From NCBI RefSeq assembly GCF_008728635.1, contig NZ_CP044285.1, forward strand, positions 4,154,001 through 4,218,000: a DNA stretch of 64,000 nucleotides, given 5' to 3'. A program made the position numbers and the translations under genes. Source of the DNA: Hymenobacter baengnokdamensis (GTDB lineage: Bacteria; Bacteroidota; Bacteroidia; Cytophagales; Hymenobacteraceae). The notes below the pieces were generated by a model that was not told the DNA's origin, searched no databases, and saw only the letters and a program-made list of their open reading frames with translations. This document shows positions 3,224-55,700 of the stretch, piece after piece. Position 1 is the stretch's first letter. Every line of letters begins with the position of its first letter.

Positions 3224-4336
3224 TTATTTTTCCTGCAAATACTTCACCATCAGCGCTGCGGCTTGCGTGGCCGCGCTGTGCTGGCCCAGCTTCTGGCGCA
3301 GCTCGGCATAGCCACTTCGTTGCTGGGCAATGTACGCCTCATCCGTCAGCAGGCGCTTCAGCTCATCGAGCAGGTTACGGGCCGTAAAATTGCCTTGGAT
3401 AAACTCCGCCACCACTGCGCGGCCCACAATAAGATTAACCAGCGAGATGTAAGGCACCTTGATAAGCGCCTTGCTGACCAGGTACGTGAGGCTACTGGTG
3501 CGATAGCACACTACCTGCGGCACGCCAAACAGCGCCGTTTCGAGGGTGGCCGTGCCGCTGGTAACAAGGGCGGCGCTGGCGCGGCTCAACAAGTCGAAGG
3601 CCTGGTCGAATACCAGCTTAATACCATTGCGCTCAAAGTGCTGGTAATAAGCACGGTCGAGGTTACTTACGCCGGCAACTACAAACTGATATTCCTGAAA
3701 GGCGGGCAGCACGGCCAGCATCTCGTGCAGCATCTCCTCTATTTCCTGCTTGCGCGAGCCGGGCAGCACGGCAATAATCCTGCGCCCGGGGTCGAGGCCA
3801 TGCTGCGCCATGAAGCCGGGGTCGGGCCGAAAGGCGGCTACCTGGTCGGCCGTCGGGTTGCCGATATAGTCTACCTTATACTCGAAGCGCTGATAAAACT
3901 CCTCCTCGAAAGGCAGGATGACAAACATGCGGTCAACGTAGGCTTTTATCTTTTCGCCCCGGCTCTGATTCCAGGCCCATATTTTAGGCGATATATAGTA
4001 AAAAACATTTATTCCTTGTCCTTTGGCAAATTGCGCCATGCGTAGGTTAAAGCCGCCGTAGTCTACCAGAATAAGCACATCGGGCTGGTAGGCCAGGATA
4101 TCGCGCTGACAATCTTTAAGATACTTCCTGAATTTGAGCAGGCTTGTCGCGGCTTCCACAAAGCCCATCACGGCCAGGTCGCGGTAGTGGCGCACCAGCT
4201 GCCCGCCTTCGGCCTGCATGAGGTCGCCGCCCCAGTACCGAAAATCGGCTGCCGGGTCCTGGCCCTTTAGCTCATGCAGCAAGTGGGCAGCATGGGTATC
4301 GCCGGAGCGCTCGCCCGCAATAAGGTAGTATTTCAT
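3224..4336 (-). CDS. lpxB: Lipid-A-disaccharide synthase
   Basis: LpxB joins UDP-2,3-diacylglucosamine and lipid X to make the lipid A disaccharide at the inner membrane. The 370-residue length is normal. Visible marks are the N-terminal YYLIAGERSGDTHAA, the KIWAWNQSRGEKIKAYVDRM block and the VLPGSRKQEIEEML nucleotide-binding region, followed by SGTATLETALFGVPQVVCYR. It lies downstream of queD in a co-directional run. With msbA-like, gmhA, hldD and the PagL-like gene in this window it supports a normal LPS/lipid A pathway. Confidence 0.95.
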   Translation of the reverse strand: MKYYLIAGERSGDTHAAHLLHELKGQDPAADFRYWGGDLMQAEGGQLVRHYRDLAVMGFVEAATSLLKFRKYLKDCQRDILAYQPDVLILVDYGGFNLRMAQFAKGQGINVFYYISPKIWAWNQSRGEKIKAYVDRMFVILPFEEEFYQRFEYKVDYIGNPTADQVAAFRPDPGFMAQHGLDPGRRIIAVLPGSRKQEIEEMLHEMLAVLPAFQEYQFVVAGVSNLDRAYYQHFERNGIKLVFDQAFDLLSRASAALVTSGTATLETALFGVPQVVCYRTSSLTYLVSKALIKVPYISLVNLIVGRAVVAEFIQGNFTARNLLDELKRLLTDEAYIAQQRSGYAELRQKLGQHSAATQAAALMVKYLQEK

Positions 4337-9719: not shown

Positions 9720-12700
9720 ATGCGTTTACTCCTTACCCGCGTACGCCCTTTGCTGCGTCAGCTGGCGCTACTGCTGGCCTTGCCCGTTGTGGCGCAGGCC
9801 CAGCTAGTACTAACATCCGGCAGTGCTGTTACTACTGATTTCAATGCATTGGGCTCAAGCGCCACAGCTGCGTTACCCGCTGGGTTCGTAGTTTCCAACG
9901 TTTCCAGCGGTATTACCTATTCCAGCGGTACTAACACGAGCGCCACAACACTCGCCGCTGGCACGAGTGGCACGGGAGCCCTCAGTAGTACGTCATCCGG
10001 CGGCACTTATAATTTCGCGAATGGAGTAACGGCGACCGCTACCGACCGGGCACTTGGCTTTCTTAGTACGGGCACCTATGTGGCCCCACGGCATCTGCTG
10101 CTGGCCATCCAGAACAATACCGGGCAAACCATTACCGACCTGAGCATAGCCTATGATATCGAGAAATATCGTGCGGGCACCCGAGCCTACGAATGGCAGT
10201 TCTGGACAAGTACTGATGGGAGCACCTGGGTACAGCAAACCTCTCTGACGCAGTCATACACCGCCGATGGAGCAAACGCCGTTGTTAATCCGACTACTAC
10301 AGTTTCTAAAAACACCGTTCTAACCGGCCTCAACCTGGCGGCTGGGGCTATTACCTACCTTAGGTGGTCGTATGTGGGCATAGGCGGTAGCACAAACGGT
10401 CAGGGGCTTGGGCTTGATAATCTGGTACTGACGCCTAGCCTTTCGGCCACCGCGCCTACCGGCACCACCTCCATCACGACTACCAGCTCCAACTATAGCA
10501 GCCCCTATTGCGTTAGCAGCAGCACCGGGAGCGCCGCTTTTAACGTAGCCTATACGGCCAGCACTACTGGCACGAGCACCTTCACCGGCACTTTCAAGGC
10601 GCAGCTTTCCAACGCAGCCGGCACCTTTCCGGCCGATGCCACCAGCAATATTATTGGTACCGGCACGGGCACCTCGCCTATATCGGCCACCATTCCGGCG
10701 GGCACGCCCAGCGGCACCGGCTACCGCATCCGGGTCGTCAACGACGGTCCCAGCACCCTGGGCTCCGATAACGGTAGCAACCTGACTATCACCCTGGCTC
10801 CGGCCAGCAATCCCGTTAGCGTTGCGCCGGCTACGGCCCAGACGCTTACGCCCACTGGCAGCGGCAATACCCTCACGGCCAGCGCGGCCGTGCCTTCGGC
10901 TTATGCCTGGTTTTATGGCATTACGGCTGGCGGACCTTTTTCTACGGCCATTGCCAGCGCCACCACGGCTACTTACCAGCCCAATGGAGGCGACTTTCCC
11001 GGCATGGGTACCTATTACGTGGTGGCTCAGGCCACCACCTCGTGCGGCAGCGTGGTCGGCACCAGCTCGCCGGTTACCATTACCGTAGGCCAGGCGCCGT
11101 CGGCGCTGACTGCGTCAGTGGCTTCCCTGCCCGACTTTGGCTCGGTGGCAATCGGCAGCACGTCGGCAGTGAAATCGTTTTCTGTGAGTGGCAACGGCCT
11201 CACCGGCGCTGTAACCATCACGCCCGCGCCGGGCTTCGAAATCCGGACCGGCGCTACGGCTTTTGCCTGCTGCGCTATTGTGCTGTCGCCCGCCAGCGGC
11301 ACCCTGGGCAGCACCCAGATTGACGTGCGCTTTGCGCCTCAGCTGGCCCAGGCCTACGCCGGCAATATTGCCGTGAGCAGCCCCGGCTTTAGCGAGCAGG
11401 ACGTGGCTGTGACCGGCACCGGCATTGCGCCTACTTACCCGGCCACCGTGAATACCACCGCTCCCTCGGCTATCATGACTACCTCGGCTACTGCCGGCGG
11501 CACTACCTCCGACGACGGCGGCAGCCCTATTACGGCTTACGGCGTGGCCTACGGCACCGATACCGAGCCAACCGTGGCCGGCCTGCACACCACCGACGGC
11601 GCCGGCCTGGCCACCTTTACCAGCTCCCTGACCGGCCTGCAGCCCGGCGTGCTCTACTATGTGCGCGCCTACGCTACTAATGCCCAAGGCACTCTATATG
11701 GCGAGCAGCTTAGCTTCACCACCGTGGCAGTTCCGCTGGCCGATGAGCCGACTACGTCCTCTACCATCACGGCCAGCGCGGTTTATCCGAGCCGGATATT
11801 GCTGACTTTTAGCGGAGGCAACGGAGCTAAGCACCTGCTGCTGGCCCACCTCAACGGGGCAGTCAACCAGGACCCCAGCGATGCAACTACTTATACGGCC
11901 AGCGCTACGTTTGGCAAAGGCTCTGTGCTCGGCTCCGATGCCGATAACTATGTAATACTTGCTGCGGCCAGCGATACGGTGACCGTTTTTGGGCTGCACC
12001 CCAACACACCCTATACGTTTGCAGTCTACGAATACAACGATAACAATACGCCCTACGCCGAAAACTACCTGACCAGCAACCCCGGCACTTTCGCGCTCAC
12101 TACGCCAGCGCTGCCGCCCACGCGGCTGTTTCAGGAAGACTTTAGCTACCCTGCGGGCACGCTGCTCACCGCCGACAGCTGGGCGGCGCACAGCGGCGCT
12201 GGCACCAAGCCCTTTACCGTTACCAGCAATAGCCTCTCCTACGCTGGCTACAGCGCCGGCACTGGCAACTCTACCGCCTTTACGGGGAGTGGGGAAGACG
12301 ACGACCGGCAGTTTACAACCATGTATGCGCGCACTCCGGTATATGCATCGTTTCTGGTATCGGTGAGCAGTGCATCTACCACCGGCGATTACTTTCTGCA
12401 CCTGGGGCCCACTATCCTAAGCAGCACTTTCCGGGGCCGGGTCTTCGCCCGTAAGTCGGCCACGGGCACGCTGGAGTTTGGGGTGGCCGGCAGCGGCACG
12501 CCCGTGTACGCGCCCACCGAGTACGCCTTCAATACCACTTACCTGCTGCTGCTCAAGTACAGCTTTGATGAAACCGGCAACGAGTCGGACCTCTTTATCA
12601 ACCCCGCTACTACCGGCATCAGCACTGCCCCCGATGCCAGCGTGGTGGAGACAGCCAGCACGTCGCCTACCGATATCGGCACTATCGCTCTGCGCCAGGG

Positions 12701-13298
12701 TTCCAGCTCCCCGCTACTTACCCTTGATGGCCTGACCGTGGCCACTGCGTTTCCCTTACCCACGCCGCTGCCCGTTACCCTTACGCAGTTTACTGCCCAG
12801 TTCGTGGGCCACACCGTGCAGCTGGCCTGGCAGACTGCCACCGAGTCTAACCTTGACCACTTTGTCGTTGAGCGCGCCCCCGATGGCAAAACGTTTACTG
12901 CTTTACAGACCGTACCTGCTACGGGCAACGGCAATGGTCCGGGCCATTATTCAGCACTCGATGCGCAGGCTACTGCCGCCGGAGCTTCCCAGCTCTACTA
13001 CCGCCTGCGGAGTGTTGACCGCGATGGCTCCCGCACGTACTCGCCCGTTGAAACCGTTACTCTGACGCCTGCCTCCGCAGGCCTGGCACTATTCCCCAAC
13101 CCTACCAAAGCCACAACGACCCTTACCGGGGCTACTGCGGGCACTACCATACAAGTACTCGATGCCCTGGGCCGCGTAGTTAGCACTACTACCGCTGATG
13201 CCACTGGTGCTGCCACGCTTGCACTCCCCGCCGGCCTGGCGAGTGGGGTGTACATCGTGCGCACCGGCAGTCAGGCCCTACGGCTACTCGTGCAATAG
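9720..13298 (+). CDS. T9SS-exported multidomain protein with C-terminal sorting domain
   Basis: A 1192-residue secreted protein. It starts with a signal peptide (MRLLLTRVRPLLRQLALLLALPVVAQAQ) and is rich in Thr, Ser, Gly and Ala. Ig-like/fibronectin-like segments can be seen: DFGSVAIGSTSAVKSFSVSG with FEIRTGA near 470-520 and a Fn3-like ITAYGVAYGTDTEPTV near 600. A T9SS type A sorting domain covers about 1121-1192: LALFPNPTKATTTL, IQVLDALGRVVS and ASGVYIVRTG. No catalytic motif was recognised; adhesion or a surface role is inference. A 54-bp palindromic terminator follows. Confidence 0.9.
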   Translation: MRLLLTRVRPLLRQLALLLALPVVAQAQLVLTSGSAVTTDFNALGSSATAALPAGFVVSNVSSGITYSSGTNTSATTLAAGTSGTGALSSTSSGGTYNFANGVTATATDRALGFLSTGTYVAPRHLLLAIQNNTGQTITDLSIAYDIEKYRAGTRAYEWQFWTSTDGSTWVQQTSLTQSYTADGANAVVNPTTTVSKNTVLTGLNLAAGAITYLRWSYVGIGGSTNGQGLGLDNLVLTPSLSATAPTGTTSITTTSSNYSSPYCVSSSTGSAAFNVAYTASTTGTSTFTGTFKAQLSNAAGTFPADATSNIIGTGTGTSPISATIPAGTPSGTGYRIRVVNDGPSTLGSDNGSNLTITLAPASNPVSVAPATAQTLTPTGSGNTLTASAAVPSAYAWFYGITAGGPFSTAIASATTATYQPNGGDFPGMGTYYVVAQATTSCGSVVGTSSPVTITVGQAPSALTASVASLPDFGSVAIGSTSAVKSFSVSGNGLTGAVTITPAPGFEIRTGATAFACCAIVLSPASGTLGSTQIDVRFAPQLAQAYAGNIAVSSPGFSEQDVAVTGTGIAPTYPATVNTTAPSAIMTTSATAGGTTSDDGGSPITAYGVAYGTDTEPTVAGLHTTDGAGLATFTSSLTGLQPGVLYYVRAYATNAQGTLYGEQLSFTTVAVPLADEPTTSSTITASAVYPSRILLTFSGGNGAKHLLLAHLNGAVNQDPSDATTYTASATFGKGSVLGSDADNYVILAAASDTVTVFGLHPNTPYTFAVYEYNDNNTPYAENYLTSNPGTFALTTPALPPTRLFQEDFSYPAGTLLTADSWAAHSGAGTKPFTVTSNSLSYAGYSAGTGNSTAFTGSGEDDDRQFTTMYARTPVYASFLVSVSSASTTGDYFLHLGPTILSSTFRGRVFARKSATGTLEFGVAGSGTPVYAPTEYAFNTTYLLLLKYSFDETGNESDLFINPATTGISTAPDASVVETASTSPTDIGTIALRQGSSSPLLTLDGLTVATAFPLPTPLPVTLTQFTAQFVGHTVQLAWQTATESNLDHFVVERAPDGKTFTALQTVPATGNGNGPGHYSALDAQATAAGASQLYYRLRSVDRDGSRTYSPVETVTLTPASAGLALFPNPTKATTTLTGATAGTTIQVLDALGRVVSTTTADATGAATLALPAGLASGVYIVRTGSQALRLLVQ

Positions 13299-26327: not shown

Positions 26328-28172
26328 GTGAAAACCTACCTCCGCCTGCTGAGCTTCTCGCGGCCCTACGCCGACTTCGTGCCGCTGTATGCGCTGTATG
26401 CCACGCTGGGTATTTTCTTCGGCATTGCCAACTTCACGCTGGTTATTCCGCTGCTAAACGTGCTGTTTGGCACTACCGATACGCACACGGCCGCTGCGCC
26501 GGCCGTACTACCGGCCTTTGCGTTCTCGCTCGACTACATCAAGGCGCTGTTTAATTTCTACTTCAACCAGATGCTGCTGCTGCACGGCAAGCAGGGCACG
26601 CTGGCGTTTGTATGCGGCCTAATTATCGTATCGGTGTTTCTGAGCAACGTATTTCGCTACCTCGGCGGGCGGCTGCTGGCGCGGGTGCGGGCGCGGGTGG
26701 TGCGCAACGTGCGCGGCGCCTTGTTTGGCCGCATCACCGAGCTGGAGCTGGGCTATTTCTCGAATGAGCGCAAAGGTGACCTTATCTCGCACCTCACCAA
26801 CGACGTGCAGGAGGTGGAAATATCGGTAGTGAACACGCTCACGGCGGTGTTTAAGGAGCCGCTCAACATCGTGGGCATTTTCGTGCTGCTGTTTTCGATG
26901 TCGGCCCGGCTCACCTTGTTTTCGCTGGTGCTGCTGCCTGTTTCGGGGGGCATTATTGCCAGCGTATCGAAGCGCCTGCGCCGCCACGCCACCATCAGCC
27001 AGACCACCCTGGGCGCCATGCTCTCGGTGATTGAGGAAACCCTGGGCGGCATGCGCGTGGTAAAAGCCTTCAATGCCCGCGCGTATGTGTTCGGCAAGTT
27101 CCAGTTTCAGAACGACTTATATGCCCGCACCACGCAGGCCATCGACAACACCCGCGACCTGGCTTCGCCGTTTTCCGAGTTTGCGGGCGTAACCGTCGTG
27201 GCGGGCCTGCTTTACTACGGCGGCTCGCTGGTGCTGAGCGGCCAGGCCGAGCTGTCGGCAGCATCGTTTATTACCTATATTATATTATTCTCCCAGATTC
27301 TGACGCCGGCCAAGTCGCTGTCGGGGGCATTCAGCAACATTCAGCGCGGGCTGGTGGCGGGCGGCCGGGTGCTGAGCATTATTGATACCGAGCCCAGCAT
27401 CCGCGACCGGCCCAATGCCATCGCACTGCCCCCCTTTCACGAGCAGGTGGAGTTGCGCAACGTGAGCTTTCACTACGGCGACGTGCCGGTGCTCTACGAC
27501 CTGAATCTGACCGTGAAAAAAGGCCAGACCATCGCGCTCGTCGGCCCCAGCGGCGGTGGCAAAAGCACGCTGGCCGACCTGCTGCCGCGCTTTTACGACC
27601 CCAGCGCCGGGCAGGTGCTCATCGATGGCCACGACGTGCGCGACTGCACGCTGTACTCGGTGCGCGCCCAGATGGGCATCGTGACGCAGGAAAGCATTCT
27701 GTTTAACGACACCATTTATAATAATATCAAATTTAACACCGAAGCTTCTGAGGAAGAGATAATTGCGGCTGCTAAAACGGCCAATGCCCACGATTTTATT
27801 ATGGCTTCGCCCGATGGCTACCAGACTACTATCGGCGACCGGGGCGGGCGACTTTCGGGTGGGCAGCGCCAGCGCCTGAGCATTGCGCGGGCCATTCTGC
27901 GCAACCCACCCATTCTTATTCTCGATGAAGCCACGTCGGCCCTCGACACCGAGAGCGAGAAGCTGGTGCAGGAAGCCCTCACGCGCCTCATGGCCTCGCG
28001 TACCTCGCTCGTGATTGCCCATCGCCTCAGCACCGTGCGCCACGCCGATGAGATTATCGTGCTCCAGCATGGCCGCATTGTGGAGCGCGGCACCCACGAC
28101 GAGCTGCTGCTGCGCCCCGGCGGCCTCTACCAGCGCCTGAGCCAGCTGCAAACCAACGCGGCGCTCGTATAA
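26328..28172 (+). CDS. MsbA-like ABC exporter (permease-ATPase fusion)
   Basis: A 614-residue half-transporter starting at GTG 26328. The N-terminal membrane domain (about 1-330) has six spans, with FFGIANFTLVIPLLNVLFG early on. The ATPase domain has Walker A GPSGGGKST (from residue 406), Q-loop GIVTQESILFND, signature LSGGQRQR (from 509), Walker B ILILDEATSALD and the H-loop in VIAHRLSTV. In this neighbourhood (remB-like, gmhA) export of lipid A or another lipid-linked glycan is the best guess, but drug-type exporters look alike. Confidence 0.93.
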   Translation: MKTYLRLLSFSRPYADFVPLYALYATLGIFFGIANFTLVIPLLNVLFGTTDTHTAAAPAVLPAFAFSLDYIKALFNFYFNQMLLLHGKQGTLAFVCGLIIVSVFLSNVFRYLGGRLLARVRARVVRNVRGALFGRITELELGYFSNERKGDLISHLTNDVQEVEISVVNTLTAVFKEPLNIVGIFVLLFSMSARLTLFSLVLLPVSGGIIASVSKRLRRHATISQTTLGAMLSVIEETLGGMRVVKAFNARAYVFGKFQFQNDLYARTTQAIDNTRDLASPFSEFAGVTVVAGLLYYGGSLVLSGQAELSAASFITYIILFSQILTPAKSLSGAFSNIQRGLVAGGRVLSIIDTEPSIRDRPNAIALPPFHEQVELRNVSFHYGDVPVLYDLNLTVKKGQTIALVGPSGGGKSTLADLLPRFYDPSAGQVLIDGHDVRDCTLYSVRAQMGIVTQESILFNDTIYNNIKFNTEASEEEIIAAAKTANAHDFIMASPDGYQTTIGDRGGRLSGGQRQRLSIARAILRNPPILILDEATSALDTESEKLVQEALTRLMASRTSLVIAHRLSTVRHADEIIVLQHGRIVERGTHDELLLRPGGLYQRLSQLQTNAALV

Positions 28173-32265: not shown

Positions 32266-33423
32266 TTAGAGCTTCACGCCTAGTTTCAGCTCAATGACAT
32301 CGGCCGTAGCGCGGTGCGCTTTAAGGTCGATATCAATAAACAACAAATTAGTTAACTGATACTTAAGACCGATGCGCTCGTAGTAGAAGGGGTTTGATTT
32401 GTAGGGATTGTACACGTAAAAGCCCAGGTGCGTCACCATCGCCAGCCGCCCGAACAACAGCTCGTGGCCCACGAAAGCGCTGGCTTTTTTAACGTCGGGC
32501 AGGTGGTCCTGGCTGCGGGCCGTATCGCGCAGCACGGCGGCCAGCGACCGGTCGTCGAATCCTTCAATACCTACCAGCAAATTGCTTTTACGATTGACGC
32601 GCCGGCCCACGGCCAGCGTTACCGAGCTTACAGGGTAGTGCTTGGGGTCGCCCCCGGTGCGCTGCTTATAGCCCAAACTGGCGCTGACATTAAAAAAATT
32701 GTGCCCAACGTCGGCGGGGTCGGGTGCCATGGCGGTGGGCACAGGCACGGAGCGCTGCTGGTAGTAATTGAGGCCCAGCAGCAGCGTGGGCAGGTTAATG
32801 CCAAAGTTGGGCTTGGCCGAGCCCCCATTGGAGTAATGATTGAGGCCCAGACCCATAAGCAGCCCCAGGTGCTGGCTCAGGGCTACATCGTACTCCAGCC
32901 GCATTTGCAGCGTGGCGTTGAGGGCCGAGCTGACGAAGGTATTCTTGCGGTTGGTATAGAGGTCGTAGTGCTGCGGAAAGTACGCCAGCCCGGTCCCCAG
33001 CCGAAAGCTCAGGTCGTGGCGAGCCGTGCGCCGGATAGCCTTGCTCAGGTAAACCGAGGCCGCGTAGCTCTGCCCCAGTATCGGGTTATGGTAGTCGTAG
33101 TACACCAGCGCCAGCCCCACTTTGGGGTACTTGTACCAGCTATGCCAGGGTGCTGCCCCGGTAGTCTGGCGCTGCACGTTCAGTTCAAAGCCGGTTGGGT
33201 GGGAGGCCACCAGGTGGCTAACGGGCCGCGTATGGTTGATAATTATCGCCCCCTGCGCGTAGGCGCCGAAAATAAATTTCTCGGGCAAAGGCTGCTTTAC
33301 CGAATCAGGTACCGGAAGCTTCTGCGCCAGGCCGGGCAGGGCCGCTGTAAGACTGCTGAACAGCAATACCCCACTAACTACATAATATTTAATGAGCTGC
33401 AAAGCCCGACGAAACCGGCGCAT
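32266..33423 (-). CDS. Acyloxyacyl hydrolase / PagL-like lipid A 3-O-deacylase
   Basis: An outer-membrane enzyme of 385 residues that should remove the 3-O-acyl chain of lipid A. The signal peptide is within residues 1-34 (YVVSGVLLFSSLTAALPGLAQ). The PagL catalytic region is GLGLNHYSNGGSAKPNFGIN, with the His-Ser-Asn signature, at about residues 210-230. It is longer than Pseudomonas PagL, as is common in Bacteroidota. A TAGCTTTG box lies 23 nt upstream of its ATG. Confidence 0.85.
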   Translation of the reverse strand: MRRFRRALQLIKYYVVSGVLLFSSLTAALPGLAQKLPVPDSVKQPLPEKFIFGAYAQGAIIINHTRPVSHLVASHPTGFELNVQRQTTGAAPWHSWYKYPKVGLALVYYDYHNPILGQSYAASVYLSKAIRRTARHDLSFRLGTGLAYFPQHYDLYTNRKNTFVSSALNATLQMRLEYDVALSQHLGLLMGLGLNHYSNGGSAKPNFGINLPTLLLGLNYYQQRSVPVPTAMAPDPADVGHNFFNVSASLGYKQRTGGDPKHYPVSSVTLAVGRRVNRKSNLLVGIEGFDDRSLAAVLRDTARSQDHLPDVKKASAFVGHELLFGRLAMVTHLGFYVYNPYKSNPFYYERIGLKYQLTNLLFIDIDLKAHRATADVIELKLGVKL

Positions 33424-47178: not shown

Positions 47179-47817
47179 CTACTTTTTGCCCCACAGCGGC
47201 ACCCGGCTTTCGGTACCAGCCCGCAGGCGGCCGATATTGGCTCGATGGGTATAGATGAGCATAGCCGCTAGCAAAAAGCCGAACCACACTTGCAGCGGAT
47301 TGGCGGGCCGGAAGGCAGGCAGCAACTGCAACAAGGCGAAAGCCACGCCGGCCGTCATGCTGCTCAGCGATACGTAGCGCGTAGCGCCCAGCACCGCCAG
47401 AAACACGAGGAGCGCCACCCCTACCGTGGCGGGTGCAATAGCCAGCATCATCCCCAGGATAGTGGCCACGCCCTTGCCCCCCCGAAAGCCTGCCAGCACT
47501 GGATAGATGTGGCCTACTACTGCTAGCACGCCGCAGGCCAGTCGGTAGTAAAATAGGTTCTCGGGCGCAATAAGCTCCTGGCCCAGCAGAAGATTGGGCA
47601 GGAAGTACGCGGCCGCAAAGCCCTTAAACGCGTCAACCAGCAGCACAAACGTGCCTGCTTTCTTGCCTAGTACCCGAAAGGTATTGGTGGCTCCGGCATT
47701 GCCGGAGCCGTGCTCGCGGATATCGGCAAGGTTAAAAAACGCCCGCCCCACCCACAGGGCCGTCGGGATGGAACCAAGCAGGTAGGCCGCTAGCAGCGCC
47801 AGAATAATGTAGAGCAT
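47179..47817 (-). CDS. plsY: Glycerol-3-phosphate acyltransferase PlsY
   Basis: PlsY transfers acyl from acyl-phosphate to glycerol-3-phosphate, the first step of phospholipid synthesis, in the inner membrane. The 212-residue length is normal, with about five spans. Conserved motifs are SIPTALWVGRAF, the HGSGNAGATNTFRVLGKKAG block and GFRGGKGVAT. A TACTTTTG box at 47822-47829 ends only 4 nt before the ATG. Confidence 0.95.
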   Translation of the reverse strand: MLYIILALLAAYLLGSIPTALWVGRAFFNLADIREHGSGNAGATNTFRVLGKKAGTFVLLVDAFKGFAAAYFLPNLLLGQELIAPENLFYYRLACGVLAVVGHIYPVLAGFRGGKGVATILGMMLAIAPATVGVALLVFLAVLGATRYVSLSSMTAGVAFALLQLLPAFRPANPLQVWFGFLLAAMLIYTHRANIGRLRAGTESRVPLWGKK

Positions 47818-47862: not shown

Positions 47863-50800
47863 CTACGAGTCGCCGAAGGGGTCATCTTCCGCTTTCTTCT
47901 TTTTCTTTTTCGACTTCTTATCCGGCTCGGGGGCAGGCTCCGTGCCGGGGTCGGCGCTCGGGTCGGGCGCAGCGGCCTTTTCCTTTTTCGCTTTTTTGGT
48001 TGGCTCGGGGGCGGGCTCTGGTGAGGCAGTGGGGTCGGCCGCGGGGGCCGGGTCGGCGGCCTTTTCCTTTACCTTCTCCTTTTTGACGGGCTCAGCAGCC
48101 GGCGAGATAACCCCATCGCCGAAGGGGTCGTTGTCCTTGGCTTTCTTTTTCTTCTTCACCGGCTCCTCTACCGGCGCGGCCGCGTCGGCCTCGCTGTTGG
48201 GGTCAGCCTTGGGCTTTTTCTTAGACTTTTTGCCGGTTTCGGCCCCGAAGCCGTCGAAATCGCCCGTTGGGGTGGCGGCGGCCGGACGCGGAGCCAGGCG
48301 GCCCGACTTACCCAGGTAGTCGCGCTCGAAGTGCGAGCGGAAGCGGTCCACATCCTCAAAGTCGCCCAGGAAGGCACCGTAGTCGGGGGCCGTTTCGATA
48401 CTGCCTTTCTGCTTGGCGGATATTTCGCCATCAAATGCCTCGCTGGATGACTTTACGAGCAGCACATTATTGGCGTAGCGCAGATAGTACCAGGTTTGGG
48501 GCTCGGCTTCGAGATATACCTCTACCAGGTCGGTCGAGTTTTCACGCTTTATCTCTATGTAGCCATCTACTAATGCGTTAAGTCCTTGCTTACCTACGCC
48601 AGCCAAGCCAATTTTGCCCACCGAGTGCCAGGCGTGCTGCTTGGGGTCCCAGCGCAGATTTACCTTGCTCAGCGTGAGCGTATGGAGCAGCTTAGGCGAA
48701 ATGGCTGCCAGCGCGGGCGGCACCACACCGGGGCGGCGATTGCTAAACGCCTCTGCGCCTTTGTTGCCGGCAAACTGCGCAATGTTGTATAGCTCATCGG
48801 TAGAGCCATCGAGCGCCTCGGGCGCGTTTTTAGTTACTTTCGCCAGGGTGCTGGCCATCAGTTCCACGGCTTTGGGGGGCATGGCCGCATCGATACCCAG
48901 TAGGGCTCGTACCCGGTAGTGGGCACTATCGGGGTTGGCCTGCCCTACGCCGCTGGCCGCAATGCTATAGTTTTTGTTGTTGGCGATAAAATTCATCGGC
49001 CCCCGAAACGTCATTTGATTGGTTGAGTCGCGGAAGCTGAGTACCGTGCCCTGGTACTGGTTGGGGTCGCTCAGGTCATGGTCGGTGATGGTATATGTAC
49101 CTAGCTTATTGTCGTAGTGCAGCCGCCCGGCCACTTCAATGAGCGCGATATCGCTGGAGCTGCCCAGCGGACCGGCATAGAGCGGATAGATACGATTATC
49201 GGTGTCCGACACAAAGAGGCCGGTGGTGAGGGCAGTGCCATCTTCCGATTTGAGGTCGCGCAGGCTGAGGTCCAGGTTTTTGGGGTCGATACTGTCTTTC
49301 ACGGCAAACCAGTCGGCCGTAGCCGCGTCGCGCAGCTTGCCAAACTGCAGCTGCACCTGGCCATCGAACAGGAGGCCGCGCTTGCGCGAGTTCAGGCTGA
49401 TGCCACCCCGGAAGCCCACGCGCGGAGCCACCTGAAACTTCTGGTTGGTTTCTACATTGGCCGTGGCGGTGGTAGCCAGCGTTGGGGCAGTAGCAGCCTC
49501 AGTAGCAGTGGCTTTGCGACGTATGCCAAACCGCTTACGGCTGGTGGTCGAGGTCAGCAATGAGGCCGAGTCGGACTTAAAATCCACAAACTTCAGCGCA
49601 ACGGAGTCGCCGGTGGCGGTGCGCGACATATACTTGGCATCGCCGCTGAAGCCATCGCGCGAGTCGACCCGAATGTTACCGCCCACCAGCTTATGAAACC
49701 TGCCCAGCGAATCGAGGAGCACCTTGGCATTGTGCAGCACCTGCATTTTGCCGCCCCCCGCAATGGCCACCCGCCCCGAGTCTGGAATTACCCAGGCATC
49801 GGCCGTGGCTATGTACGGCACGCCCTTGGTTTGAAGCTGATACTTGGTGAGGTCATAGCTGGCCGCACTAGCCCTGAACTTCAGGCCATTTTGCTCGGGC
49901 ACTGTTGAGGTAAAATACGACCGCACCGAGTCAGCCCCGGCGGCCCGCAGCAACACCTGCTTTTTCTTAAAGTCCCAGTGCCCCCCGCTGAGCGAAGTGC
50001 GGAAGCCCGTGTAGGGCAGGTCGATAGATGCCTTGCTGCCCTCCTCCCGCTTAAAGTCGGCGAAGCCCTTTTTAAGGTCATAGGTAAAGCTCACATCGCT
50101 GGCGGCCAGGGCCGCTTTGCCCGCCTGGGCCGACTTTACACTCAGCAGCGCTTTTTGTCCTGAATAGGAATCGTTTTTAAACACCAGGTTTTCGGAGCGC
50201 ACGTAGCTCTGCGGGCCATCCAGGCGGCCCGACCCGCCCACCGTCTTGGGAGTGAGCAGCAAGGAGCCTTTAAAGGTATGGTCGGCGTAGACCTTGGCGG
50301 CGGCCCCGCCCGGTGGCGTTTGCAGGTGCAGGCTGTCAGTACGGGCACCCCAATTAATAAGGTAGCCCGGTGGAAGCACCACTTTGGGGGTATTGGGGCC
50401 GGCCGCAATCGAGCCGGCTTTGCCCTCACCGGTCAGCGAGTCGCCGTACATCACGAAGCGGTCGCTCTGCATGGTGGCACCCAGGTAGGTAACCGTGCCA
50501 TTCGATTGCAGCCCTTGAGTATTCAGCCTCACTTTGGCCCCGCCCGCCAGGTGGCCCTTACCCCCGTACATAGGGTAGCCGGCGGCCGGCACGGTATGCA
50601 CAAAGCCCATGGAGCCATCTTCCTGCGGCGTGAGCGCCGTTTTGATGGGCGGCAGCGCCCGGCTGTGAAACACGCCCACGAAGTTGCCCCGCGATTTGCC
50701 GGTGCCCATCGAGTCGAAGCTGAAGGGAGGCACGTCAAAGTAAGTAGTCGTATCGTAGGCCCCGCCCAGCACGTCGGGCTTATTGAAGTAGACGTAGGCC

Positions 50801-53427
50801 CCCGAGGTGGAGCTGAACGACGGGTACTTTGGCAGCTTCTTACGCCCCGAGCGGTTTTTGGGGTCGTTGAGGTATAGCCGGCCACTCTGGTAGTTGCCTT
50901 TATTAGTGAGTACGAAGTCGCCGGGTGGCGCTTCTTCAGCTGCGGTGTTTTTGCCGGTTGCCTTTTTGCGCTTGTTGCGGATAGTCAGCGAGTCGATACG
51001 GGGCATATCGATGTAATAGCCGTCGTAGTCGAACTGATAATCGCGTCCTTTAAAGCCATAAACCGAGGTTTTTACCCGGCCGCCAAATTTCATGTTGCGG
51101 TTGCGCTCCATGCGTACCGTGCCGCTATCGGGCTGCACGAACACGGCCGCTGAGTCGTCGGAGAAGCTGAACTGCTTTACTCCCCGCAGCACCAGCTGGT
51201 TGGACGTCATGTTGAGGGTAGCGCTTCGCCCCGAGCCACTCAATGACTTTATATCGATATGGTCATAATCCTTCTTTTCGCGGGCGGCCCCCACGTAGTG
51301 CCGGGCTTTGCGCAGCAGTACTACTTCGCCGGTCTGGGGCCGCACATCTACGTAGCCATCGCGGGCGAGGCCGCCGATGGCTGAGCGCAGGTTGGCTTCG
51401 GAGGTATTGGTGGCCACGGCTACATCGTGCACATTAAGCACGTCGCCGTGGCCGTGGGCGATGCTGTAGCCCAGCAGCATTTGCAGGGGGTGCAGGTGGT
51501 TGATGCTCTTAAGCTGCTGGTAGCGGGTATTGGAAAAGAAGTCCTTGCTCTCAAAATCGGCCGAAACCTGGGTGGGAGAAGTCACGATGCTAAAGTCCAT
51601 CTTCGGCTCGCGCAGGTTCCAGGTCAGCATCTGCGCCCGGATATCAACCTGGTGGTACGAGTCGGAATACGGCGCATTACGGTAGAGGCCCTGCCCGTAG
51701 AGCAGCTTCAGCTGCTCCTTGTTTTTCAGATATTTCAGCTCCACTCCCGGATGGGTGATGGAGTCGCCGGTGCTTTGGTAAAGGGAAACTGCGGCCTGAC
51801 CGGCCGTGATGACCGAGTCGCCGAGCACAAAGTTGCGCGAGTCGGAGCGGAAGCGCAGCTTATTGTCCTGACGCACCAGCAAGTGCGAAACCGAGCCGTC
51901 GAGCGAGGCCGACAGCATGCTACTGCCCGCCAGCGACAGCCCGCCCTGGTAGGTAATGCCGGGCCCGATATCCTTTACCCGAACGTCGTTGGTGAGCGAG
52001 ATAAAGCGCGGGTAGCTGCTCTCGGTAGCGCCGGGCTTACGGCGCACGCTCTTGTAGCTGAGGGCACCTTTTACTGGGGCTTCGAGCCGGGCGGCGTAGG
52101 TAAGCGTAACGGGCTGCGCCGTAAACTCGGGCTTGCTCAGGTCGAAGTCGAAGCCAGCCAGGTCGGCCGTTACGGGGTTGCCTTTTATCGTCCAGGCTAC
52201 CTGCCCGCCGGTGCCTACAAAGTGGCTGCCCAGCGTGGCTGCCGTGCCGCTCACCTTGTGTATCACGATAGAGTCGCTGGAGGTGCGCATTACCAGGTCA
52301 GCGTCTTTCAGCTCCAGTACCGGCCCACTGATGGCGGGTGGGTAATACGCATCGTAGGCCGCACTGGCCGATGGCACAAACGGCTGGCTGGCCTGCTCGA
52401 AGTCGGCCGCGCTGGGGGCAGGCGTGCTGGTTTTGGCTACGGGCTTGGCAGCGGGTTTGGCAGCAGTCTTGGCCGTCGCCTTGGCGGGCGCTTTTTTTCT
52501 GGGCGTGCCCCAGCCGTCGTCAGCAGGTGCGCCCCAGCCATCGTTGGCTGCTTTCTTTTTAGAACTGACAATGGGTGCCCCCCAGCCGTCGTTGGCGCTG
52601 CTCCAGCCGTCATTCTTGCTGGCCTTGCTGCTGCCGGAGGTATTCCACATATCGGCAGTGTCCCAGCCATCGCTGGCCCGCTTTTTCTTTACTGCGGGCT
52701 TGGGCTTCGCCTTAGGCTTGGCTACGGCAGCCGGCTTGGCAGCGGGCAGCTCAGCAGGCTTCGGGGCCGGAGCGCTGCCAAACGAGGCGTTGGGGTCAAC
52801 GGCGGCGGGCGCTTTGTAGGCAAACGACAGCTGGCCGCCCACGGCGCGCAGGGCGTTAAAACCCGAGCGATACAGGTAGCCGCCGTTCAGCACGCGGGCC
52901 GTCATCATCAGGTATTTTTCCGCTTCGGGAACGGGGTCTTTCTCTACCGACTGGCTTACCGCATCCAGGTACTGGTCGAGCTGCGTATCGTTGAGGCCGG
53001 CTTTGGCTTTGCCGCCGATGATAGCGCTGTAAAAGGCCGTCAGGTGCGGGATAGGCCGCATCTTTTTATCGAGTATCTTCTGCGACAGGGCCGCGATGGC
53101 CGACTGCTGGCTGGCCGTAAGCGTGTTGCTGCCCCAAAGCTGGCGCAGCTGGTCACCCAGCGCCCGCGCTCCCGCATTGTTGGTAGCCAGCATCATCGTG
53201 CGCACATCGATGATAAACTGGGCCGGGTCGGCGGAAAGGTGGCCCGTGTACCGCTGCACTGCCACTTGGCCGGGGCGCACTTCGCCGGCTACGCGGCCAT
53301 CGGTGGGCGGCGCAGCCGGCGGTGCAACGGTCTTGGCCGCGGGCGGTGCGGCCGGCTTGGCAGTCTGCGCCCGGGCGGGCAGCAGCGGGAAAGCGAGGCA
53401 GAAAAAGGCGGCGAGCAGTCGCTTCAT
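47863..53427 (-). CDS. Very large exported protein of unknown function
   Basis: I do not recognise this 1854-residue protein. ATG 53427 gives a clear signal peptide (MKRLLAAFFCLAFPLLPARAQ). A helical N-terminal part (about 40-210) precedes a Pro/Ala/Lys linker with five DGW units at about 253-308 (DGWGAP type). Most of the rest (about 340-1690) is strand-rich, with repeated sheet-like units, suggesting a beta-helix or OstA/AsmA-like surface; FDVPPFSFDSMGTGKSRGNF is one landmark. A segment near 690-740 (NLRSAIGGLARDGYVDVR) looks helix-turn-helix like, perhaps by chance. The last 145 residues are Lys/Asp/Pro-rich with DPFGDG and a terminal DPFGDS. It lies between prmA and plsY. Confidence 0.88.
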   Translation of the reverse strand: MKRLLAAFFCLAFPLLPARAQTAKPAAPPAAKTVAPPAAPPTDGRVAGEVRPGQVAVQRYTGHLSADPAQFIIDVRTMMLATNNAGARALGDQLRQLWGSNTLTASQQSAIAALSQKILDKKMRPIPHLTAFYSAIIGGKAKAGLNDTQLDQYLDAVSQSVEKDPVPEAEKYLMMTARVLNGGYLYRSGFNALRAVGGQLSFAYKAPAAVDPNASFGSAPAPKPAELPAAKPAAVAKPKAKPKPAVKKKRASDGWDTADMWNTSGSSKASKNDGWSSANDGWGAPIVSSKKKAANDGWGAPADDGWGTPRKKAPAKATAKTAAKPAAKPVAKTSTPAPSAADFEQASQPFVPSASAAYDAYYPPAISGPVLELKDADLVMRTSSDSIVIHKVSGTAATLGSHFVGTGGQVAWTIKGNPVTADLAGFDFDLSKPEFTAQPVTLTYAARLEAPVKGALSYKSVRRKPGATESSYPRFISLTNDVRVKDIGPGITYQGGLSLAGSSMLSASLDGSVSHLLVRQDNKLRFRSDSRNFVLGDSVITAGQAAVSLYQSTGDSITHPGVELKYLKNKEQLKLLYGQGLYRNAPYSDSYHQVDIRAQMLTWNLREPKMDFSIVTSPTQVSADFESKDFFSNTRYQQLKSINHLHPLQMLLGYSIAHGHGDVLNVHDVAVATNTSEANLRSAIGGLARDGYVDVRPQTGEVVLLRKARHYVGAAREKKDYDHIDIKSLSGSGRSATLNMTSNQLVLRGVKQFSFSDDSAAVFVQPDSGTVRMERNRNMKFGGRVKTSVYGFKGRDYQFDYDGYYIDMPRIDSLTIRNKRKKATGKNTAAEEAPPGDFVLTNKGNYQSGRLYLNDPKNRSGRKKLPKYPSFSSTSGAYVYFNKPDVLGGAYDTTTYFDVPPFSFDSMGTGKSRGNFVGVFHSRALPPIKTALTPQEDGSMGFVHTVPAAGYPMYGGKGHLAGGAKVRLNTQGLQSNGTVTYLGATMQSDRFVMYGDSLTGEGKAGSIAAGPNTPKVVLPPGYLINWGARTDSLHLQTPPGGAAAKVYADHTFKGSLLLTPKTVGGSGRLDGPQSYVRSENLVFKNDSYSGQKALLSVKSAQAGKAALAASDVSFTYDLKKGFADFKREEGSKASIDLPYTGFRTSLSGGHWDFKKKQVLLRAAGADSVRSYFTSTVPEQNGLKFRASAASYDLTKYQLQTKGVPYIATADAWVIPDSGRVAIAGGGKMQVLHNAKVLLDSLGRFHKLVGGNIRVDSRDGFSGDAKYMSRTATGDSVALKFVDFKSDSASLLTSTTSRKRFGIRRKATATEAATAPTLATTATANVETNQKFQVAPRVGFRGGISLNSRKRGLLFDGQVQLQFGKLRDAATADWFAVKDSIDPKNLDLSLRDLKSEDGTALTTGLFVSDTDNRIYPLYAGPLGSSSDIALIEVAGRLHYDNKLGTYTITDHDLSDPNQYQGTVLSFRDSTNQMTFRGPMNFIANNKNYSIAASGVGQANPDSAHYRVRALLGIDAAMPPKAVELMASTLAKVTKNAPEALDGSTDELYNIAQFAGNKGAEAFSNRRPGVVPPALAAISPKLLHTLTLSKVNLRWDPKQHAWHSVGKIGLAGVGKQGLNALVDGYIEIKRENSTDLVEVYLEAEPQTWYYLRYANNVLLVKSSSEAFDGEISAKQKGSIETAPDYGAFLGDFEDVDRFRSHFERDYLGKSGRLAPRPAAATPTGDFDGFGAETGKKSKKKPKADPNSEADAAAPVEEPVKKKKKAKDNDPFGDGVISPAAEPVKKEKVKEKAADPAPAADPTASPEPAPEPTKKAKKEKAAAPDPSADPGTEPAPEPDKKSKKKKKKAEDDPFGDS

Positions 53428-53486: not shown

Positions 53487-54317
53487 TTACAATTTGGTGA
53501 AAATAGCCGATACCCAGCTACGTAGCGTGCGGTGCCGCTCGTAGCGCAGCCCCTGGCGGGTAGCCTCGGCCGTTATTTTAGGTAAATCTTCCTCGTAAAA
53601 CCCGCTGAACAAAATTGGTTTCCCAACCGGCAGTAAGCGCGCATACTCGTGCATATCCTCCAGCAATACGTTGCGGTTGATATTGGCCAGAATGAGGTCG
53701 AAAGGCGCTTCATCGGCCAGGGTTTCGACGCCGCCCAGGCGGCACTCGATGGTATGGCACTGGTTTTCGGCGGCATTGTCGCGGGCGTTTTCCACGGTCC
53801 AGGGCTCTACATCTACGGCCAGCACCTGGCGCGCGCCCAGCTTCTCGGCCATAATGGCCAGTATGCCGGTGCCGCAGCCCATATCCAGCACGCGCTTGCC
53901 CTGGTGGTCTATATCAAGCTGATTCTCAATCATCAGCGCCGTGGTTTCGTGGTGGCCGGTGCCAAACGACATGCGCGGCATTATCTCAATATCGTAGGCC
54001 AGCCCCTCGGGCTTGGCATGAAACGGCGCCCGCACCGATACCCGCTCAGCAATGATGAGCGGCTGAAAATTCTTTTCCCATTCGGCATTCCAGTTCTGGC
54101 GGGTAATCACGCGGTCGGAATAAGCCAGCTCACCAATGCCTTCGTAGCGGCTCATAATCTCGGCTACGGCGTCGCGGTCAAATGCTTCTTCGGTAGTGTA
54201 GGCACAAAAGCCGGCGTCGTTATCCTCAAACGTGTCGAAGCCTACTTCGCCCAGCTCGGCTACCAGCATATCGGCCAGCTCGCGGGGAGCCTGCACGGTC
54301 AGTTCAATAAAATCCAT
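53487..54317 (-). CDS. prmA: Ribosomal protein L11 methyltransferase
   Basis: PrmA trimethylates L11 using S-adenosylmethionine. The 276-residue product from ATG 54317 (MDFIELTVQAPRELADM; an ATG three codons upstream is also possible) has an N-terminal substrate-recognition domain, the linker SFGTGHHETTALM and the SAM site VLDMGCGTGILAIMAEKLGA. The motif LILANINRN completes the class I fold. Confidence 0.94.
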   Translation of the reverse strand: MDFIELTVQAPRELADMLVAELGEVGFDTFEDNDAGFCAYTTEEAFDRDAVAEIMSRYEGIGELAYSDRVITRQNWNAEWEKNFQPLIIAERVSVRAPFHAKPEGLAYDIEIMPRMSFGTGHHETTALMIENQLDIDHQGKRVLDMGCGTGILAIMAEKLGARQVLAVDVEPWTVENARDNAAENQCHTIECRLGGVETLADEAPFDLILANINRNVLLEDMHEYARLLPVGKPILFSGFYEEDLPKITAEATRQGLRYERHRTLRSWVSAIFTKL

Positions 54318-54454
54318 TTTTAGCAATCGGTATAAATAGTACCGGCTGCAAAGTTCGCAGAAAATCAGCGGTTAGACTTCACCTAGCTTTTCGGCCCACC
54401 GGCCCAACCTGCAAAAGCCGCCGGCAGGTGCCAGCGGCTTTGTTCTATTAAAAA

Positions 54455-54469
54455 TTTACTATATTTACT
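54455..54469 (-). repeat. AGTAAATATAGTAAA word over a stop codon, copy 1
   Basis: The 15-nt minus-strand word includes the TAA stop of the DUF6150-type gene. An identical copy covers the cysteine synthase stop at 56648-56662. Confidence 0.5.
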
Positions 54470-54821
54470 GTTTACAGCCTGCAAATGAGCGTACTTTGGT
54501 GTAGTGAATGGCGAAGTCGGCGCGGCTGCGGTCGGCCGTCACAAACAGGGTGTAATCGGCAAACTCGCGGTTTTCGGATGGGCACCACAGGCCGGCTTTG
54601 TCAGCAAAAAGCTTGTTGGTCTCGTTGAAAACCAGCAGGTCGGCAAAAGCCTGCTCGGGCTCGATGTACACCACGGCAAAGCAGTTGTTGGCGCGGTTCG
54701 GGTCGGTTTCGAGGTACACCGAGCCGTAGATTTTACAGGGGTCAACCGAGCCAAGCGGGTGCGGCGCAACCCGGCCGGCCGGCAGTATCCACAGCAGAAA
54801 AGAAAGGAGCAGCGACAACAC
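54465..54821 (-). CDS. DUF6150-type small exported protein
   Basis: A 118-residue protein from GTG 54821. A hydrophobic N-terminus (SLLLSFLLWILPAG) suggests export. The body has CKIYGSVYLETDPNRANNC, EQAFADLLVFNETNKLFADKAGLW and a C-terminal DFAIHYTKVRSFAGC. The pattern matches the Bacteroidota family I know as DUF6150 (from memory). The Cys residues could form disulfides outside the cytoplasm. Function unknown; it sits between prmA and tpiA. Confidence 0.75.
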   Translation of the reverse strand: MLSLLLSFLLWILPAGRVAPHPLGSVDPCKIYGSVYLETDPNRANNCFAVVYIEPEQAFADLLVFNETNKLFADKAGLWCPSENREFADYTLFVTADRSRADFAIHYTKVRSFAGCKQ

Positions 54822-54932: not shown

Positions 54933-55700
54933 CTAGAACGATTTGATAATCTCGACGAAGTCGCGCGACTTGAGCGAGGCGCCGCCGATGAGGCCGCCAT
55001 CGACGTCGGGCTGACTGAAGAGCTCGCGGGCGTTCTGAGCGTTGCACGAGCCGCCGTATAAAATAGTGGTATCGGCTGCCACCTGGGCATCGTAGGCGGC
55101 CGCTACCTGCCCCCGGATGAAAGCGTGCACCTCCTGGGCCTGCTGGCTGCTGGCCGTGCGGCCCGTGCCAATGGCCCAGATGGGCTCGTAGGCAATTACT
55201 ACCTGGCTCAGCTCCTCTTTGCTGCTATGAAACAGGCCGGCCGCCAGCTGCTGGCCGATAAAGTCGAAAGTTTCGTTGGCCTCCCGGGTTTCGAGGCTTT
55301 CGCCCACGCAAAAAATGGGCTTGAGGCCGGCCGCCAGGGCAGTTTTCAGCTTCTGGGCCAGCAGGGCATCATCTTCGCGAAAATGCTGGCGGCGCTCTGA
55401 GTGACCCAGGATAACGTACTGGCAGCCCACCGAGTGCAGCTGCCGGGCCGACACCTCTCCGGTATAAGCACCGCTCTCCTTCTCGTGAAAGTTCTGGGCC
55501 CCCAGCGCGGGGTTGCCGCTTTCGCCCAGCAGGCGGCCCACGGCCAGTAGCAGCGGAAACGGCGGGCAGAGCACCACCTGGGGGGCCGGCACGCTGGTCG
55601 GCTCATCGTGCAGCATTTGTACGATTTCGGAAGTCAGAGCCTGCGCTTCGGGCAGGGTGAGGTTCATTTTCCAGTTGCCGGCAACGAAGTTCTGGCGCAT
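54933..55700 (-). CDS. tpiA: Triosephosphate isomerase
   Basis: TpiA interconverts dihydroxyacetone phosphate and glyceraldehyde 3-phosphate. The 255-residue product has all catalytic residues: Asn and Lys in GNWKMN, His in YVILGHSERR and Glu in VIAYEPIWAIGTGRTAS, plus the phosphate-binding GGSCNAQN and GLIGGASLKSRDF. A TACTTTTG box at 55757-55764 gives a 57-nt leader. Confidence 0.97.
   Translation of the reverse strand: MRQNFVAGNWKMNLTLPEAQALTSEIVQMLHDEPTSVPAPQVVLCPPFPLLLAVGRLLGESGNPALGAQNFHEKESGAYTGEVSARQLHSVGCQYVILGHSERRQHFREDDALLAQKLKTALAAGLKPIFCVGESLETREANETFDFIGQQLAAGLFHSSKEELSQVVIAYEPIWAIGTGRTASSQQAQEVHAFIRGQVAAAYDAQVAADTTILYGGSCNAQNARELFSQPDVDGGLIGGASLKSRDFVEIIKSF

Follow-up and report, generated by a model that had tools for sequence, protein, structure and literature searches.

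A Giant Exported Protein of Hymenobacter baengnokdamensis with Predicted Lpt-Type Jellyrolls and an Inserted Winged Helix: A Candidate Lipid Bridge of the Periplasm

A stretch of 64,000 nucleotides from Hymenobacter baengnokdamensis (contig NZ_CP044285.1, positions 4,154,001 to 4,218,000; the window) contains a gene for an exported protein of 1854 residues, and the locus raises the question of what so long a protein does. The initial annotation, made from the letters alone, named no family for it and guessed at a lipid bridge or an outer-membrane assembly factor of the AsmA, TamB or LptA type. The gene, called the giant gene below, is a single open frame and gave the only match when its own 4.43 Mb genome was scanned. 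Mechanical calling of open reading frames had placed the start at a TTG four codons upstream of the ATG. No family was found for the query protein in Pfam, NCBIfam or PADLOC, in agreement with the annotation. When 28 family members were compared with Pfam and NCBIfam, the bulk of the protein was unmatched and only scattered weak matches appeared, the best being Fe_dep_repress in two members (E 0.0004) and Sul12a in three (E 0.0003). We take both to be winged-helix-type families.

Predicted models of the protein were compared with solved structures by Foldseek and VIA. For both halves, the nearest solved structures were Lpt proteins. The beta-jellyroll (OstA) fold, by which the OstA/LptA-LptC-LptD superfamily is recognized, is very probably present in two separate stretches of the model. 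Structure comparison also detected a winged-helix fold, the criterion of the MarR/GntR regulators, and this computation places it as an insertion within the first predicted jellyroll; some structural alignments of that jellyroll extend past the insertion to residues ~776-801. The winged helix was a feature beyond the earlier reading. The structured, mainly strand body spans ~1340 residues and has 95 predicted strands of at least three residues between residues 360 and 1665, as expected from the strand-rich body described before, and 92 when the winged helix is excluded. With these 92 strands split over two sheets at the textbook spacing of 0.48 nm, a single unrolled groove would be ~22 nm long, which is an upper-end figure and near the width of the periplasm.

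Computation on the sequence indicates that the protein is exported, probably as a single periplasmic chain, with a signal peptide that looks cleaved. The signal peptide (MKRLLAAFFCLAFPLLPARA) is directly followed by Q. This fits the Bacteroidetes Q-rule (PMC10653852). With a loose pattern, an AxA-Q-like site was found near the N-terminus in 120 of 125 family proteins, including the query; five control windows taken from other parts of the chain gave 20 to 48 of 125. With a stricter pattern, the counts were 116 of 125 and 5 to 36 of 125, respectively.

We put the probability at about one in two that the giant protein, composed at least partly of OstA-type jellyrolls like those of LptA, LptC and LptD, acts as a periplasmic lipid conduit or lipid-holding bridge. 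Between the two membranes, the exported protein would keep lipid shielded inside one long groove. The jellyrolls would join into this single groove, whose cargo may be lipopolysaccharide (LPS), phospholipid or a different lipid of the envelope. Docking sites could lie in the N-terminal helical domain, in the winged helix and in the C-terminal helices; we infer both the partners and a direction of transport. Phospholipid is a natural guess for the cargo from the adjoining plsY, although gene order is thin evidence. A stronger version can be proposed only tentatively: a second, Lpt-independent OstA-fold bridge that would span the periplasm alone in one piece in many Bacteroidia, with the winged helix docking or gating in its wall, and that some lineages would have lost wholesale. 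The lipid-bridge guess of the initial annotation stands at the level of the fold on its LptA-like side; its TamB side is not prominent, with one TamAB chain found by Foldseek at E 0.53.

Several observations weigh against a lipid conduit. Residues ~801-1004 and ~1228-1665 fall outside the Lpt matches of low root-mean-square deviation (rmsd), and the rmsd was near 11 for two of the nine leading matches of the N-terminal half, for which Foldseek gave just two matches below E 0.001. Whole-chain template modelling (TM) scores were low (0.15), and the predicted TM-score (pTM) was 0.70-0.72, so the long-range shape is uncertain. Jellyrolls can exist without a lipid cargo, and the modelled alternation of strands would also fit an ordinary sandwich. 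No profile similarity to OstA_2 was found by hhalign (probability 0.6 and 1.3 percent), in a run made without a positive control across the known OstA subfamilies. In addition, the lineages without the gene can dispense with it, and 25 of the 26 class genomes lacking it keep OstA_2.

The rival that survives best keeps the OstA fold and drops the lipid. The body would serve as a scaffold or chaperone that holds envelope machinery or keeps it spaced (that of outer-membrane protein assembly, secretion or peptidoglycan), and the winged helix and helical domain would do the binding. Such a role would suit modules that are unfamiliar from lipid bridges, namely the six-helix domain, the winged helix and the charged tail, and a gene that can be lost; downstream on the same strand, some loci encode a giant PD40-repeat protein, which in one case (L118) also has a SPOR domain. 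However, LPS-carrying Lpt proteins are the solved structures whose folds come nearest to the body, and we consider the scaffold somewhat improbable.

It is unlikely that the protein is part of, or substitutes for, the canonical LPS bridge of the lineage, although it is the Lpt bridge itself that its fold matches. OstA_2 (PF13100) was detected in 187 of 198 class genomes. Because it is present with or without the giant gene, the giant gene is no replacement for the canonical bridge; an accessory role could remain. Since OstA_2 is near-universal, its co-occurrence, the sole one tested, is uninformative on function. The one OstA_2 locus of the H. baengnokdamensis genome (C1:2946612-2947208, L223) belongs to a protein of 601 residues, which passes the NCBIfam cut-off as LptC and matches LptA below threshold. 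The giant protein resembles it in the presumed OstA fold and in export; it differs in being encoded elsewhere in the genome and in a profile-profile probability of ~1 percent. No match to the hidden Markov models (HMMs) of OstA, LptA, LptC or LptD was found in the query and 28 family members, whereas the genome's own OstA_2 protein passed as a positive control. LptA and LptH, the periplasmic LPS bridge, appeared in the Foldseek results as chains of 131-141 residues, against 1854 residues here. Unlike LptA, the giant protein has an inserted winged helix and a gene beside tpiA-prmA-plsY, in addition to lacking the LptA match, just as the absence of the LptD match separates it from the LptD N-terminal jellyroll.

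Still less likely is a repeating beta-groove (taco-fold) protein of the AsmA/TamB type. The likeness lies in comparable length and a beta-rich build in the envelope, in the single TamAB chain mentioned above, and in the UniRef names of seven of the 120 listed homologues, which start with "Translocation/asse..." (three are whole and read "Translocation/assembly module TamB"). No TamB or AsmA chain was among the VIA matches shown, which leaves such chains possible. The TamB domain (PF04357) was not matched in the query or the 28 family members, whereas two other loci of the genome carry it (E 8.5e-58 and 3.5e-50), and hhalign against part of one of these TamB proteins gave a probability of 0.2-0.3 percent, in a weak test with a single sequence. 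We set identity with TamB aside. By computation, the giant gene is distinct from both the TamB-domain genes and the canonical OstA_2 gene of the genome. According to PMC12045153, TamB is anchored in the inner membrane, in contrast to the cleaved-looking signal peptide with a Q-rule site seen here. The same paper reports TamB and TamL homologues in all Bacteroidota species examined and seven AsmA-like proteins in Flavobacterium johnsoniae.

A DNA-binding regulator, after the name "YhcF, GntR family" of one JGI entry among the matches listed, is very improbable, because the winged-helix fold, although present, makes up ~85 residues of an 1854-residue exported protein and is close to neutral (a mean net charge of 1.1 across 124 proteins; 0.25 at residues 675-692), and nearly all family proteins carry the export signal.

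To what extent is the gene shared? The initial annotation asked whether it is universal in Bacteroidota. Profile searches across the class and phylum show that nearly all genomes of some orders carry it and that other lineages lack it. A profile from 27 homologues matched 167 of 194 genomes of the order (83 of 93 genera), and a wider profile matched 172 of 198 genomes of the class (101 of 120 genera). In a draw from the phylum, 12 of 296 genomes matched (9 of 139 genera); the genomes listed there are of high quality, many of them from lineages without the gene, and 264 misses stand outside the list. Eleven of the 12 are counted as real, because the match in the genome G648 covers only the winged helix, in a frame of 239 codons. 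From the class of G648, 149 drawn genomes gave the same spurious match only. Since the phylum draw gave few matches and that class only a spurious one, the family looks, by profile searching, confined to the class Bacteroidia and patchy within it. One of 79 titled loci speaks against this confinement, as its contig (L121, PAVT01000024.1) is titled as a metagenome-assembled genome (MAG) of Verrucomicrobia; the MAG is probably mislabelled.

In the protein search, 188 homologues reached E 0.001 or better. Among the 120 listed, the named organisms were Hymenobacter or close to it, except for two MAGs titled Janthinobacterium lividum. A scan of titled contigs gave 323 relatives, and the best 79 loci include Flavobacteriales and Vicingaceae. 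Saprospiraceae were named in a further search (120 listed of 589 homologues), and Cytophaga, Roseivirga, Catalinimonas and others in another (120 listed of 131). The homologue in the genome G076 shares 82 percent identity with one named Cytophaga aurantiaca. The source names are mostly "hypothetical", apart from the exceptions given above.

Judged by these searches, the absence from some lineages is real. A deeper profile matched none of 28 genomes without the gene, in a run without a positive control. In a controlled repeat with 29 genomes, all 16 known carriers were matched (weakest best E 1.9e-80) and none of the 13 non-carriers; six of the carriers (G000, G019, G064, G253, G331 and G539) had contributed rows to the profile, and the other ten none. 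No relative was found in regions of 12 kb around prmA in 20 non-carriers. The families f19, f40 and f83 each hold both carriers and non-carriers. Many genomes give two or three matches, apparently pieces of one gene. In G218 (contig C42, 308202-317482), two full-length copies stand in tandem, with open frames of 1552 and 1569 codons.

The remaining parts of the protein, which the initial annotation had described correctly, are given with the other features in Table 1. The N-terminal domain is predicted to have six helices (~68-182) and three short strands, and no fold match was assigned to it. The DGW units of the linker lie at residues 253, 273, 280, 296 and 304. Much of the linker has a predicted local distance difference test (pLDDT) score below 50 and looks disordered; several other Cytophagales rows of the alignment have a shorter acidic W-rich stretch. 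The DPFG-type end is well conserved in 27 Hymenobacter-type rows and not in the other lineages of the wider alignment. The alignments show the family to be much wider, with the DGW linker and the DPFGDS tail added in particular lineages, a point that goes beyond the earlier reading.

Table 1. Coordinates in the window of the giant gene, its predicted parts and its neighbours
Feature	Position	Strand	Basis
Whole gene, 1854 codons and stop	47863..53427	-	single open frame from ATG
Signal peptide, residues 1-20, then Q21	53368..53427	-	sequence, Bacteroidetes Q-rule site
N-terminal helical domain, residues ~56-205	52813..53262	-	structure prediction; alignable across the order
Low-complexity linker, residues 206-360	52348..52812	-	five DGW units at 253-306
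First beta part, residues 368-632	51532..52326	-	predicted structure, pLDDT mostly > 90
First LptA-like beta-jellyroll (predicted), residues 488-628	51544..51966	-	structure comparison
Inserted winged-helix domain (predicted), residues ~633-717	51277..51531	-	structure comparison
Second beta part, residues 718-1665	48433..51276	-	predicted structure
Second LptA/LptD-like beta-jellyroll (predicted), residues ~1004-1228	49744..50418	-	structure comparison
Charged, disordered-looking Lys/Asp/Pro tail, residues 1706-1854, ending DPFGDS	47866..48312	-	sequence
prmA, upstream neighbour, 59 bp gap	53487..54326	-	PF06325
plsY, downstream neighbour, 45 bp gap	47179..47817	-	PF02660
tpiA, part of the recurring gene order	54933..55700	-	PF00121

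The position between prmA and plsY was borne out by the Pfam matches. The expectation that the gene always lies near them holds for most loci and not for all. Of the 79 titled loci, 65 have enough upstream sequence, and 52 of these have prmA directly upstream in the same orientation; plsY is directly downstream in 45 of 67, and tpiA is upstream in 34 of 62. Among 20 further carrier regions, 18 have prmA as the nearest upstream gene, 12 have plsY directly downstream and 11 have tpiA nearby; five more regions have prmA in four and plsY in three. Some carriers have neither prmA nor plsY alongside. The pairing with prmA is the steadiest, and alone it is no argument for a lipid role. In the mirror-tree analysis, the distances of the giant gene correlated by rank with those of prmA at 0.47 (81 genomes), of plsY at 0.62 (48) and of tpiA at 0.24 (53); the three neighbours gave 0.30-0.63 among themselves. 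This result is weak and compatible with vertical descent.

In one non-carrier (L198, G300:C1:810000-822500), plsY follows prmA by ~70 bp, which reads like a clean removal of the gene. Between tpiA and prmA, the window has a gene for a small DUF6150 protein (54465-54821, minus strand), and frames of similar size occupy its place in some relatives, where size and position were compared. The giant exported-looking proteins encoded downstream on the same strand have 2304 residues in L118 (11515-18426) and 2094 in L107 (12170-18451), both with PD40 repeats; there are more than a dozen similar frames. In G230, G324 and G382, an OstA_2 gene lies within ~5-11 kb of the giant gene, which may be chance. 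The lipid A genes reported for the window were recovered as LpxB (3224-4336) and PagL, with a lipid A 3-O-deacylase domain (32266-33423, minus strand); an MsbA-like ABC protein (26328-28172) fell below the model cut-off. The window also encodes a protein of 1192 residues with fibronectin type III (9720-13298, plus strand), whose type IX secretion sorting tail is just below the Pfam cut-off.

No description of the family was found in the searchable part of the openly licensed PubMed Central literature, outside which most subscription papers and bioRxiv lie. OstA-fold lipid bridges are already known as a kind; we know of no precedent among them for such a length, an inserted winged helix, this gene context or so patchy a distribution.

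To our knowledge, it is not settled by which route phospholipids, and lipids besides LPS in general, arrive at the outer membrane, and we know of little study of Bacteroidota envelopes for lipid transport. A widespread, unnamed exported protein with a predicted LPS-bridge fold is a concrete candidate for lipid transport to the outer membrane. The natural losses within f19, f40 and f83 offer ready comparisons, and the result argues against naming some homologues "TamB" by default. If the one-piece bridge proposed above is true, the lineages without the gene would move that lipid otherwise or do without it.
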